From positions 248,001 to 312,000 of the forward strand of contig NZ_CP009512.1 of the NCBI RefSeq assembly GCF_000970205.1: a stretch of 64,000 nt of DNA. The letters are read 5' to 3'. Source of the DNA: Methanosarcina mazei S-6. Lineage in GTDB: Archaea; Halobacteriota; Methanosarcinia; Methanosarcinales; Methanosarcinaceae. The notes under the pieces were generated by a model that worked only from the letters and a program-made list of their open reading frames with translations, had not been told where the DNA came from and made no database searches. The position numbers and the translations under genes were made by a program. Below, one piece after another: positions 19,181-24,369 of the stretch. Every line of letters starts with the position of its first letter. The first letter of the stretch is position 1.

Positions 19181-21676
19181 TTACGGCTCTTTATCCCCAA
19201 ACCAGATTGTAAATTCTGTCCCGCAATTTCTACTGAGCTCTACACAGCCGTCTATTTGGTCAACAAGGATATTTACAAGCTGGAGCCCTAGAGAATCAGC
19301 ATTTTCGATCTCTATTTCTTTTGATATGCCCTTTCCATTGTCAGCCACTCTGAGTATGTATCGGAAATTATCTATTTCGTTGCAGTGCTGGTCCGAGTCT
19401 GATACATTGTTTCCTTTGTCAAAAGTCTCAGCTCTTCTCAGGCTTATATGGACTTCGCCTTCGCTTCCAGCAGGGAAAGCATGCTTCAGGGAGTTTGAAA
19501 ACAGTTCATTTACAATGATACCAAGAGGGATTGCTGTATCCATATCCAGATATACCTGCTCAAGATCCATTTTCAAGCTGATATTGTCATTTCCTAGATT
19601 ATATGAGCTGAATAGATCAGCAGTGAGTTTGCGGAGATAAGCTGCAAAGTCAAGGGTGTCGTTTTTATCTCCTTTGTAGAGCTCTTCGTGTATCAGAGCC
19701 ATTGAAGCTACACGGTTCTGGCTCTCTTTCAAAGTTTCAAGCATCTTTTCGTCACTGAATCTTTCAGCTTCAAGACTGAGAAGAGAACATATAACCTGCA
19801 GGTTATTTTTGATTCTGTGGTGGATTTCTTTTATGCGGATTTTGTCCATTTTTTCCAGGGTTTCTTCAGCTTTTTTACGCTCCGTAATATCCTGAACTGT
19901 TCCTCTGAGTTGGACAGGATTACTTTTCTCATCAAAGACAACTTTGAATTCCTCATGGACTACACGCTCCTCCCCATTGTTCAGGACAATCCTGTAATCA
20001 ATACTGGAGAGTTTTCCCTCTAAAGCCTGTTTAGCTGCCTTAATTACTCGGTCTTGGTCGTCAGGATGTACACAATTTAAATATGTGCTATAAGTTACTC
20101 CAAATTCCTTAGGCTTAAATCCAAAAATACGATAAACTTCATCAGACCAGTGAACTTCATTAGTTATAAGACTCCGATCCCAGTTTCCGATGTGTGCCAT
20201 TTTTTGAGCCTCAGCAAGACCTCTTTCGCTTTCTTTTAATGAGCCGTAAGCCTTCTCAAGCTCTATCGTGCGTTCCTGAACTAATTTTTCCAAATTGTTG
20301 AGGGTTTGTTTTAGTTTAACTTCTGCTTCTTTTCTTTCGGTAATGTTTGTAAGCATCTTCATAGAGCCCATAAAATTGCCATCTTTATCAAAAAGAGCTT
20401 TAGCACTTACAATTGTCCATAGAGGCGTACCATTTTTGCTTATTAATTTTAATTCATGATCTCTATCAATACGCTGCTTTCCTTTTTCCATACTCTGCTT
20501 GGCAGCTTCTTTTCCTTCATCACCGGTAAAGTCCCATGCAGACCTTCCAATTATTTCTTCATGATTGTATCCCAGCATCTCTGCCATTCTCTGATTAACA
20601 TAAGTAATTCTGGCTTCAGGGTCAAGTATCCATATACCTTCGTTTGCTGTCTCTACGATATTTCGGTATTTTTCCTCACTCTCTTGAAGCTCCCTTTCCA
20701 TTTTCTTGCGCTCAGTGATATCCGTGAGAGTTACTACACAGCCTATTATCCTGCCATTGGAGTTTCTGAGAGGTCCTGAATTTAATAGTAAATGGAGCTT
20801 CTGGTTGAACTTCTGGCAACTTTTATATTCTAAGATTGCTTCCAATCCAAGGATGGTATCTCCTTTCAGAGCAGAGGAGACCGGAAGAATACTTTTTCCT
20901 GCATCTTTTCCTTCTGAGAACCGGATATCTATGATATCTTCAAATCTCTTGAACGCCGGATCGCATTTACAGACCTTGGACACTGTGTTGCTGAAATATG
21001 TGATCCTTCCAGTCGTGTCGCAGACTACTATGGCTTCGGCAGCCTGTTCTATAATTGACCGGGCCAGACGTTCAGCAGCAACTATTTCTTCATTCTTCTT
21101 CTGCTCAGTCAGGTCTGTAACCACAAGGCACCATGCACTTGGTGATCCCTCGGACTGCAATGAACTGATAGACAGGTATACTGGTACAGACGTACCACCC
21201 TGAGCCCTAAATTTCAACTCCCCTACACTGTTTTTCTGTTTCAGGAGTGCCTTAAAGGTAATAGCATCTTCTGGCGCAATAAATCCATAAATAGACGTAC
21301 CTACTACAGCCCCGGATGACATCTTTGTGAGTTCTGCAAATTGGCGATTGCAGTAAAGAATAGTACCGTCGGAGGCAAGGGTGGCAGTACCCTCATTCAT
21401 TGCCTCCACAAGAACACGATATGCACGGTCGGCACTATCCAGGGTGAAAATCAATTTTTCTTGAGGTCCAGGTATAATCAGAGCATCCAGATCCCCCTCA
21501 CTGATGGCACGCCTGAGTTCTTCAGCCTCTTCCAGCCGCATTTTTAGATCCTGTAACTCTGCTTCCAGGGCATGATTTTTATCTAACAGCTTCTGATATG
21601 GCACGTTTCCCTGGTCTTTCGCCAATTTTGAACTCATATTTACAACGCCCTTCCCCAAAAATTGCATTTTTAGCAT
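19181..21676 (-). CDS. multi-PAS sensor histidine kinase (HisKA_2 type)
   Basis: A soluble 831-residue (or 818 from ATG 21637) kinase with no membrane helices. After a coiled-coil start it has four PAS-type sensor modules at roughly residues 80-190, 205-325, 335-455 and 490-615, three of them ending in the typical DITERKK/NITERKE linker. The phosphoacceptor box is EIHHRIKNNLQVICSLLSLEAERF (HisKA_2/HWE-like). The ATPase domain has GIIVNELFSNSLKHAF, VADNGKGI and SLGLQLVNILVDQIDG. The start overlaps the stop of the second kaiB gene, so the proteins are translationally coupled. It probably transmits the KaiB/KaiC state, or is controlled by it, by inference from the operon. Confidence 0.92.
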   Translation of the reverse strand: MLKMQFLGKGVVNMSSKLAKDQGNVPYQKLLDKNHALEAELQDLKMRLEEAEELRRAISEGDLDALIIPGPQEKLIFTLDSADRAYRVLVEAMNEGTATLASDGTILYCNRQFAELTKMSSGAVVGTSIYGFIAPEDAITFKALLKQKNSVGELKFRAQGGTSVPVYLSISSLQSEGSPSAWCLVVTDLTEQKKNEEIVAAERLARSIIEQAAEAIVVCDTTGRITYFSNTVSKVCKCDPAFKRFEDIIDIRFSEGKDAGKSILPVSSALKGDTILGLEAILEYKSCQKFNQKLHLLLNSGPLRNSNGRIIGCVVTLTDITERKKMERELQESEEKYRNIVETANEGIWILDPEARITYVNQRMAEMLGYNHEEIIGRSAWDFTGDEGKEAAKQSMEKGKQRIDRDHELKLISKNGTPLWTIVSAKALFDKDGNFMGSMKMLTNITERKEAEVKLKQTLNNLEKLVQERTIELEKAYGSLKESERGLAEAQKMAHIGNWDRSLITNEVHWSDEVYRIFGFKPKEFGVTYSTYLNCVHPDDQDRVIKAAKQALEGKLSSIDYRIVLNNGEERVVHEEFKVVFDEKSNPVQLRGTVQDITERKKAEETLEKMDKIRIKEIHHRIKNNLQVICSLLSLEAERFSDEKMLETLKESQNRVASMALIHEELYKGDKNDTLDFAAYLRKLTADLFSSYNLGNDNISLKMDLEQVYLDMDTAIPLGIIVNELFSNSLKHAFPAGSEGEVHISLRRAETFDKGNNVSDSDQHCNEIDNFRYILRVADNGKGISKEIEIENADSLGLQLVNILVDQIDGCVELSRNCGTEFTIWFGDKEP

Positions 21677-22044
21677 TCTTTATCTTTTTTTGATTTCAGG
21701 TCCATCCCCATAAGGACCCTTTCGGTATCTGACATGCTGCCTATGAGCTTTCTTAATGGTGGAGGGAGCTCTTTTATAAGAGTAGGAGCTGCCACTATCT
21801 GCTCATCTCTGGCAAAGACAGGATGCTGATAGATATCAATGACCTCAAGCTCATACTTGCCGGGCGCATACTCTTCAAATATATGCTTGATATTGTTTAT
21901 CGCCTGTATTGATTTGGGCCCCATCCCTGCGACATAGAGGCGCAGAACATATATGTTGTTATCTTCTCCTTTGGCAAGGGCTTCTTCAAAGGCTGCTGTT
22001 GAGTCCTTAACATCTGACTTTCTGGCCTCTTCGGTATCAGACAT
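21670..22044 (-). CDS. kaiB: KaiB-like protein, second copy
   Basis: From ATG 22044 (GGAG eight bases upstream) this is 124 residues: a ~30-residue acidic N-terminal tail, then the KaiB fold NIYVLRLYVAGMGPKSIQAINNIKHIFEEY...YELEVIDIYQHPVFARDEQIVAAPTLIKELPPPLRKLIGSMSDTERVLMGMDL. In cyanobacteria KaiB binds KaiC and changes fold during the clock cycle. In archaea its role is unknown. GTG 22053 and ATG 22050 are alternative starts. It overlaps the preceding kaiB stop and the following kinase start. Confidence 0.92.
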   Translation of the reverse strand: MSDTEEARKSDVKDSTAAFEEALAKGEDNNIYVLRLYVAGMGPKSIQAINNIKHIFEEYAPGKYELEVIDIYQHPVFARDEQIVAAPTLIKELPPPLRKLIGSMSDTERVLMGMDLKSKKDKEC

Positions 22045-22049
22045 TAGCA

Positions 22050-22391
22050 TCACTCCACAGGACGCAAATCCAGGCCTACCAGGACTCGCTCCGTATTCGA
22101 GAGATCTCCTATAATTTTCTTTATTGGTGGAGGGAGTCTTCTAACCAGTGTTGGAACAGCTAATATTTGATCTCCTTTAGCCAGCTGCGGGTTCTCCAGA
22201 AGATCGATGACTTCAATCCTGTACCTGCCGCCCAGATGTTCTTCGCAGATTTTCTTTAAGTTGGCGAAGGCTGTCAAACTCTTTTTAGTCTGACCAGCTA
22301 CGTATAGCCTCAGGATATAAAATTCCTGCTCAGACGTCGTATCAGACTCGAGAAGCTCGGGCCCGTTTTCGCTTTGTGCCGCATTTCCCAT
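22050..22391 (-). CDS. kaiB: KaiB-like protein, first copy
   Basis: 113 residues from ATG 22391, preceded by GGTGG. A ~20-residue polar tail leads into [29 protein letters not shown]...[53 protein letters not shown]. This is closer to cyanobacterial KaiB than the second copy is (GDLSN-type C-terminal block conserved). An in-frame start at 22550 is not preferred because it adds 53 residues without family similarity. It lies 159 bp after kaiC and is coupled to the second kaiB copy. Confidence 0.92.
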
Positions 22392-22550
22392 ATAATTTCC
22401 ACCATTTGAACATAAGAAGGAGCAATTTTTCCCTGGAAGCCCCCTTCTCTTATTTTTTGAACCCCATACATTTTTAACATAGACTATTGGATAACGAAAA
22501 TGTCCACTTGCCCGGGTTTTGAGATTGTTGCCTGCATAAACCACGCCCAT

Positions 22551-23981
22551 TCAGGGCTTATCGGCTTTCCTTATTCGAACCAGCTCACTTCTGCCAGTTG
22601 CAAGCGCTTCGTTCCTCAGTTGCTGGTCGGAGACAAGCCTGTCAAGCTCCTCTTTCAGCGTCTCATATTCAGAATTCAAGCTGGCAATCTGGGTATCCAG
22701 AGATTTGAGCCTGGTCTCAAGTTCTCTCTTTTTTCTATCAGCATTCTGTCTTTGAGCCACTGCCTCTGCCAGTTCTTCAGCTTCCTGGACTGCTTTAGAA
22801 GAACCCATAAGCAGATCACCGGATGGGCCCAGATACACATCCTGAATCTCTATACCATGATCAGTCAGCAGATACTCCCTTATCTGGTTTGAATGTCCCA
22901 TGCCTCTCGACTTAATAACAGATATTCCACGATTGCGCTCATTGCTGTTCTCGAAGAAGCGAAGGTTGACCCAGGTATCCATAAGGGAAGATATGCCCTC
23001 AGCATTAATGCCAGCAGTACTTTCGTGTTCTACCAGGCTTGTGCACACAGCAGTAATATTCCTGAGCTTTAAGTAATCGATAAACCTGGTGAGCATGAGC
23101 CTTACATCGGTCTGAGTGCCCACATTGGTCAGGTTAGAAATGGGGTCTATGACTACAACATTCGGTTTGAAGGTGTCAAGGAATTTGCGCATTGTAATCA
23201 GATGCATTTCCAGCCCGTACGCCATAGGTCTGGATGCATGGATCTTCAGAAGTCCAGAGTCTAAATAAGGTTGGAGGTCTATACCTATGGACCTCATGTT
23301 CCTGATTATCTGGTCTGGAGACTCTTCATATGCGAAGTACAGGCAGCTTTCCTCCCTTTCACATGCAGCTTTACAGAACTGGGCTGCAAAACTGGTTTTT
23401 CCTGAACCAGCTGTTCCTGAGATAAGTATGGTGGTACCGCGGTAGTAACCCTGCCCTCCAAGCATCGTATCCAGGCGCGGTATGCCCGTAGATATTCTTT
23501 CTCTAGATGCCTCATGTTCCAGGCCCAATGAAGTGATAGGCAGTACCGACATTCCGTCTTCCTCTATCATGAAGGGATACTCATTGGTGCCGTGCTTTGA
23601 GCCTCTATACTTAATAATGCGCAGGCGCCTGGTTGCAATCTGTTCCTCCATTCTGTTATCCAGGAAAATTACACAGTCTGCGACATACTCTTCCAGTCCG
23701 TATCTTGTAAGAGATGTTTCTCCTCTTTCCCCGGTGACTATAGCTGTTACACCCCTGTCCTTTAGCCACCGGAAGAGCCTGCGGAGTTCAGAGCGCAGTA
23801 TCGCTTCGTTCTGGAAACCTGAGAACAGAACCTCAAGTGTATCCAGTGCAACACGTTTGGCACCTATGGAATCTATAGCCAGCCCGAGCCTTATGAACAG
23901 TCCTTCCAGGTCATACTCGCCTGTTTCTTCTATTTCGCTCTTATCAATACGAACATAATCAACTACTAGTGTCATGAACAT
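22551..23981 (-). CDS. kaiC: KaiC, C-terminal 80 percent (downstream of insertion)
   Basis: 476 residues as an independent frame. The first few codons (MFMT) come from the inserted element; from LVVDYVRIDKSEIEETGEYDLEG it is ordinary KaiC. It contains the rest of the first ATPase domain, then the full second domain with Walker A GTAGSGKTSF (189-198), FAYEES (paired glutamates), and a Ser-Ser pair in NAEGISSLMDT (S331/S332) at the place of the cyanobacterial autophosphorylation Ser/Thr pair. It ends with a ~65-residue coiled coil (residues ~400-470). It may be translated from the ATG created by the element, giving a split KaiC, or may be inactive. Confidence 0.88.
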   Translation of the reverse strand: MFMTLVVDYVRIDKSEIEETGEYDLEGLFIRLGLAIDSIGAKRVALDTLEVLFSGFQNEAILRSELRRLFRWLKDRGVTAIVTGERGETSLTRYGLEEYVADCVIFLDNRMEEQIATRRLRIIKYRGSKHGTNEYPFMIEEDGMSVLPITSLGLEHEASRERISTGIPRLDTMLGGQGYYRGTTILISGTAGSGKTSFAAQFCKAACEREESCLYFAYEESPDQIIRNMRSIGIDLQPYLDSGLLKIHASRPMAYGLEMHLITMRKFLDTFKPNVVVIDPISNLTNVGTQTDVRLMLTRFIDYLKLRNITAVCTSLVEHESTAGINAEGISSLMDTWVNLRFFENSNERNRGISVIKSRGMGHSNQIREYLLTDHGIEIQDVYLGPSGDLLMGSSKAVQEAEELAEAVAQRQNADRKKRELETRLKSLDTQIASLNSEYETLKEELDRLVSDQQLRNEALATGRSELVRIRKADKP

Positions 23982-24071
23982 TTAGTCTTTGGTCATTTTA
24001 TAAGTTAAGAATCGTTATGTATTGACATAGAAATACTATAAATTATGCTCAATAATTAAATTGTCATGACA
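23970..24071. mobile_element. 102-bp MITE-like insertion in kaiC
   Basis: The element begins TGTCATGAACA and ends TGTCATGACA on the plus strand. Its ends are inverted repeats (TGTCATGA perfect, then a one-base shift: TGTCATGAACATTT versus TGTCATGACAATTT). It is bracketed by CTAG at 23966-23969 and 24072-24075, which looks like a target-site duplication. Removing 106 bp (element plus one CTAG) rejoins kaiC in frame: AAC AAG CTA GTA GTT GAT, encoding NKLVVD, exactly as expected for KaiC. The inside is AT-rich and non-coding. Confidence 0.9.
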
Positions 24072-24369
24072 CTAGCTTGTTTCTGGCTTCCAGGCTATCC
24101 AGATTGAATCCCAGAGAGGCAAAATTCTCTGCCAGATCCTCAGCGGTCTCCTCAAAAGCCATGAATACCCCCGGCTCGCCGTAATTTTCTGCTCCTTTAA
24201 CCAGGAATTCCATAGCCATAAGAATCTTTCCCGAACCCGCACTTCCATACACCAGGGTCGTGCGCCCCTCAGGCAGTCCCCCATAAGTTATATCATCCAG
24301 ACCGCTTATGCCTGTTGGGGTTTTCTTCAAACTTTTTTCTTTTAAAACTCTGCCCTTTTCTTCGACCAT
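24064..24369 (-). pseudogene. kaiC: KaiC, N-terminal fragment (upstream of insertion)
   Basis: 101 codons starting MVEEKGRVLKEKSLKKTPTG, then the KaiC start ISGLDDITYGGLPEGRTTLVYGSAGSGKI, MAFEETAEDLAENFASLGFNLDSLEARNKLVS and a stop supplied by the inserted element. The Walker A motif reads GSAGSGKI (residues 42-49): the Thr/Ser after Lys that coordinates Mg is replaced by Ile. The downstream EE pair (73-74) is intact. Together with the downstream frame it would make a 570-residue double-domain KaiC. The fragment alone has only a partial ATPase domain. Confidence 0.88.

Follow-up and report, generated by a model that had tools for sequence, protein, structure and literature searches.

A 102-bp IS630-dependent MITE interrupting a kaiC homologue in Methanosarcina mazei S-6

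Organization of the interrupted kaiC locus

In the window (the whole 64-kb stretch of DNA that was analysed), genes for a two-domain KaiC homologue, two KaiB homologues and a PAS histidine kinase follow one another in this order on the minus strand, and the kaiC gene is split into two parts by a short element located between two copies of CTAG. The features of the locus are as follows.

24076..24369, minus strand: first 98 codons of kaiC (5' part), ending in ...EARNK; contains the altered Walker A motif
24072..24075, no strand: right CTAG of the target-site duplication, read directly from the sequence
23970..24071, no strand: MITE, 102 bp, non-coding (inverted ends, copies, end-to-end fold)
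23970..23981, minus strand: MITE end from which the downstream kaiC part gains an in-frame ATG TTC ATG ACA (seen in the sequence only)
23966..23969, no strand: left CTAG of the target-site duplication, read directly from the sequence
22551..23965, minus strand: 3' part of kaiC, encoding what remains of the first KaiC domain and all of the second; removal of 106 bp brings it back into frame with the 5' part
22050..22550, minus strand: first kaiB homologue, uninterrupted ORF (PF07689)
21670..22053, minus strand: second kaiB homologue, uninterrupted ORF (PF07689)
19181..21676, minus strand: histidine kinase (PAS/HisKA_2) belonging to this gene string, by domain match

Both parts of kaiC match the Pfam KaiC family (PF06745), and together they cover the NCBIfam KaiC model PRK09302 in consecutive stretches (6-96, then 95-514). 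Removal of 106 bp had been predicted to restore the peptide NKLVVD, and this proved correct: the flanks joined over one CTAG read AAC AAG CTA GTA GTT GAT, and the rejoined gene is a 570-codon frame whose sole stop is terminal. The insertion point is the CTAG site at codons 99-100. As called mechanically, the ORF of the upstream part spans 24064-24369 and terminates within the MITE end after ...ARNKLVS. By sequence, the gene is a two-domain KaiC homologue with a putative clock role. No paper on kaiC or kaiB of M. mazei was found in the literature searched.

Structure and distribution of the element

The interrupting segment (positions 23966-24075) has the structure CTAG-TGTCATGAACATTTAG...TTAAATTGTCATGACA-CTAG. 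Its terminal inverted repeats are TGTCATGA/TCATGACA, with an imperfect subterminal continuation (ACATTTAGTCTTT / ACAATTTAATTATT), and the perfect inverted ends are 12 bp long with CTAG included. Within the 64-kb window there are two exact matches to the end sequence CTAGTGTCATGA, one on each strand, located at the two MITE ends, against a chance expectation of 0.2 occurrences with up to one mismatch allowed. The element strand folds from end to end (z = -3.4; none of 200 shuffled sequences equalled it), and no ORF of at least 60 aa is present inside the 102 bp.

The genome, a single 4.14-Mb contig, contains four young copies (at 271966, 1283559, 1386847 and 2307772) that are 0-2 bases apart, together with an old copy at 2532645 (72% identity). 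Because four copies are nearly identical, the element represents a mobile family rather than a chance hairpin. The original prediction of a 102-bp MITE with inverted ends and CTAG on both sides is thus upheld by the fold, the copies and the flanking sequences. All five copies in the genome are flanked by CTAG, a tetranucleotide that occurs 24 times in the window versus 239 times expected from base composition; given this ten-fold depletion, the uniform use of CTAG reflects a strong target preference. Two of the four young copies lie inside genes, namely kaiC and a PAS/HisKA_2 histidine-kinase ORF, which is broken by the insertion and lengthens from 503 to 546 codons once the copy is removed. 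The copy at 2307772 (L004, around 1489-1622) is further bordered on each side, immediately beyond the CTAG, by a direct repeat, GAAGTGTG, which may be a chance occurrence.

Relatives of the MITE were matched in 25 of the 31 Methanosarcina genomes searched, some of which contain twenty or more matches, and the full-length relatives in the genus share 69-84% identity with it.

Empty sites and age of the insertion

The same kaiC gene is uninterrupted in eight other Methanosarcina species, where the open frames are 533-589 codons long. In M. mazei itself, an empty site would read AAGCTAGTAGTT. The insertion itself was found in none of the other species among the Methanosarcina genomes compared (one per species). 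With copies of the element elsewhere and empty sites in other species, neither outcome named as refuting in the original prediction was encountered. Comparison of the rejoined window gene with its nearest relative gave a dN/dS ratio of ~0.10 (0.086/0.844), and similar values were obtained between intact relatives; the gene therefore appears to have been constrained until recently. Judged from these sequences, the insertion is recent, as had been predicted, in the one genome of the species examined.

An older insertion that has become fixed in the species is improbable. The searchable sample consists of a single genome of the species, and the same kaiC also bears a change in the Walker A motif (GKT -> GKI; see below), both of which would fit greater age; however, the MITE copies differ by only 0-2 bases, both parts of kaiC are otherwise open, the low dN/dS ratio against the nearest relative argues for recent constraint, and every other species compared lacks the insertion.

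Relationship of the MITE to IS-A, an IS630-family element

A search for a full-length IS with the MITE ends identified IS-A, a 1173-bp element with the ends GTGTCTCAACCATTTAATTATT and GTGTCATGACCATTTAATTATT, which was the only such element found in the genome. IS-A is present in six copies of equal length that are 0-14 bases apart, and all six are located between CTAG sequences. Six genomic places match the right end of the MITE only (34 bp at 88%), and all of them are IS-A. The first 22 bp of the MITE and IS-A are identical at 21 positions at the right end and at 15 positions at the left end. The left subterminal region of the MITE also resembles the left end of IS-A (3 of 1000 shuffles were as good), whereas the remaining three MITE/IS-A end pairings showed no significant similarity in the shuffle comparison. 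Genome-wide, every exact copy of CTAGTGTCATGA lies at a MITE end or at the right end of an IS-A copy. Among the one-mismatch matches, two belong to the old MITE copy and three are isolated (one within a CRISPR array); neither a second end nor a transposase was found alongside these three. The array in question is long (L093; contig G000:C1 at about 1623000), and the match, which lies in one spacer, is probably due to chance.

The ORFs of IS-A match the Pfam families HTH_32, HTH_23 and DDE_3 (DDE_3 at 1.8e-26). With the NCBIfam IS630 transposase model NF033545, the second ORF scores 146.6 bits (1.1e-42), above the cut-off of 100 bits, and the first ORF scores 72.1 bits. IS-A thus has the features of the IS630/Tc1-mariner group, i.e. 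a transposase with HTH and DDE domains and a TA-centred CTAG target. In each of the six copies (e.g. L007:418-1514), the transposase is encoded by two ORFs that lie in different frames; in some relatives (genomes G030, G001 and G011), both transposase parts are spaced in one frame. At another locus (L006:206-1516), a broken kinase/response-regulator gene has likewise gained an in-frame ATG (MVMTLGIV...) for its downstream part from an IS-A end.

On the basis of the shared ends, it is very likely that the MITE was placed in kaiC through trans mobilization by the resident IS-A. The IS-A transposase would recognize the MITE ends in trans, and the MITE would have entered the CTAG within kaiC with duplication of the target. 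The kaiC copy would have been moved by IS-A itself and not by a relative that has died out or was not sampled.

The likeness between the left ends extends beyond the inverted repeat; a close IS-A relative therefore probably gave rise to the MITE by internal deletion. A simple deletion of one of the six resident IS-A copies was ruled out by the differences between the ends (88% at the right; 15 of 22 bp at the left), and the direct parent was not among the elements found. Three other candidate parents were considered and rejected. IS-B, a 1200-bp IS630-type element with the ends TGTCGCGTCA.../TGTCGTGTCACC..., and the IS630-type group at L062/L063 (ends TAGTGACCCTTCTA... / TAGTCACCATTTTA...) both have ends that are less like those of the MITE than are those of IS-A. 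In genome G024, a fragmentary IS carries the MITE-like sequence GACAATTTAATTATT at its right end but lacks its left end, and is therefore not a complete parent. No complete closer parent was found in other Methanosarcina species, and the literature searched yielded nothing on Methanosarcina MITEs with IS630 beyond one general IS survey.

The 102-bp element is short and non-coding and has inverted ends, dispersed copies and ends in common with a resident IS; it is an IS630-dependent MITE, and its insertion is a clear but ordinary event of a known kind. An IS630-dependent MITE family is thereby documented across Methanosarcina.

Length of the target duplication and the IS5 proposal

Characterized IS630/Tc1-mariner elements duplicate the dinucleotide TA (PMC2170065). 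Because CTAG is palindromic, insertions at CTAG cannot distinguish a 2-bp from a 4-bp duplication, and as all IS-A copies are located at CTAG, none of them is informative in this respect. Three copies at other sites have full 4-bp repeats (TTAG, CTAC and ATAG). The first is a 1200-bp copy of the IS630-family element IS-B in this genome (L049:1403-2610), which is flanked by TTAG on both sides and is 99-100% identical to five sister copies at CTAG. The second is a relative of IS-A in genome G002, which is flanked by CTAC on both sides and is 98% identical to sister copies at CTAG, and the third is a MITE in genome G005 with ATAG on both sides. A 4-bp duplication accounts for all three without further assumptions and is favoured, because duplication of TA would need an independent matching substitution of the element's terminal base in each of the three cases.

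Older MITE copies have asymmetric flanks, e.g. CTAG/CTAA and TTAG/CTAG. These were rejected as decisive evidence for TA duplication because changes in the inner bases (CTAA/CTAG, CTAG/GTAG) are about equally common. TA itself is mutated in some of the older copies (CCAG, CTGG), and changes in the flanks affect inner and outer bases to about the same extent, as decay predicts.

The flanking sequences thus favour a 4-bp rather than a TA duplication in these elements, on the evidence of three copies, none of which is of the kaiC type. We consider it reasonably probable that the IS630-type elements of Methanosarcina and their MITEs constitute a group that is directed to CTAG and generates 4-bp rather than TA duplications. 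Such an apparent 4-bp duplication departs from that of canonical IS630, and no report of an IS630 element combining CTAG with a 4-bp duplication was found in the literature searched. The duplication length in the Methanosarcina IS630 group, now a testable question, is the most interesting point that remains.

These results bear on the proposal in the original prediction that CTAG is a 4-bp target and that the MITE was mobilized by an IS5-like transposase. The first part gains support from the TTAG, CTAC and ATAG repeats; the second is not supported, because the only IS found to share the MITE ends belongs to the IS630 family. Mobilization by an IS5-family transposase is highly improbable, even though 4-bp CTAG duplications do occur with IS5-type MITEs such as MITEPsy1 (PMC3189936) and a duplication of this length is supported here. 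The transposase of the IS that shares these ends is of the IS630 family, and the exact CTAGTGTCATGA matches are, without exception, MITE or IS-A ends. A whole-genome end-sequence search revealed no resident IS5 element with the ends GTGTCATGA...ATTTAATTATT. Nor is CTAG diagnostic of IS5, since IS630 is likewise reported to favour TA in CTAG, according to the title of Tenzen and Ohtsubo (1991) as cited in PMC2170065.

Predicted consequences for KaiC

The N-terminal Walker A motif of the window gene (24210-24250, minus strand) reads GSAGSGKI versus GSAGSGKT in eight Methanosarcina relatives, and the window gene is alone in this comparison in having GKI. The change from GKT to GKI is probably a second lesion of the first ATPase domain, besides the break caused by the MITE. 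The break parts the Walker A half of this domain from the remaining protein, and the insertion would for this reason have led to the loss of KaiC function.

It is also conceivable that the MITE has re-shaped kaiC, such that an N-terminally shortened KaiC is made from the MITE ATG, perhaps under a promoter located within the AT-rich MITE. An ORF of 476 aa (22551-23981) opens inside the MITE with ATG TTC ATG ACA CTA GTA..., runs on into LVVDYV, and encodes most of the first KaiC domain and all of the second; a TATA-like TTATAAA is present upstream of this ATG, and the kaiB and kinase ORFs that follow are open. However, an in-frame start has a one-in-three chance of arising, no ribosome-binding site was seen upstream of the MITE ATG on inspection, the first domain of the product would lack Walker A, and the dN/dS ratio of ~0.1 against relatives reflects the past. 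Production of a shortened KaiC is accordingly considered quite unlikely, and functional loss, as judged from the gene structure, would be the more likely outcome. The locus would then represent a natural knock-out of the genome's only kaiC of its clade in which the kaiB and kinase genes are left open, so that the loss of an archaeal KaiC could now be compared with intact relatives.

Comparison with known systems

In size and logic, the closest known parallel is RUP, found in Streptococcus pneumoniae together with IS630-Spn1. RUP is 107 bp long (compared with 102 bp here), has short inverted ends resembling those of IS630-Spn1, its proposed mobilizer, and shows TA-centred targets and high copy identity (PMC2229807). 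It differs in being present as 108 intergenic repeats (PMC2229807), whereas four young copies, two of them in genes, were found here; moreover, RUP is a bacterial element, and it is likened to the Methanosarcina MITE by description.

IS630 of Shigella sonnei and ISY100 of Synechocystis have transposases of the same family as that of IS-A, and IS630 is reported to have a similar preference, for TA within CTAG, in the title of Tenzen and Ohtsubo (1991) as cited in PMC2170065. In contrast to the Methanosarcina elements, which apparently duplicate 4 bp, both duplicate the TA dinucleotide (PMC2170065), and the IS-A transposase differs from theirs in occupying two reading frames.

MITEPsy1 of Pseudomonas syringae is similar in length (100 nt) and generates 4-nt CTAG or YTAA duplications, but it is probably derived from ISPsy2, labelled 'IS5?' (PMC3189936), and its ends (GGAAGGTCTGAAAAAGCC) are different. 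The Sulfolobus MITEs SMN1 and SM3A are, like the present element, archaeal, non-autonomous and reliant on the transposase of a resident IS, but they belong to another host phylum, are 320 and 164 bp long, and have ISC1733 and ISC1058, respectively, as parents (PMC3718332).
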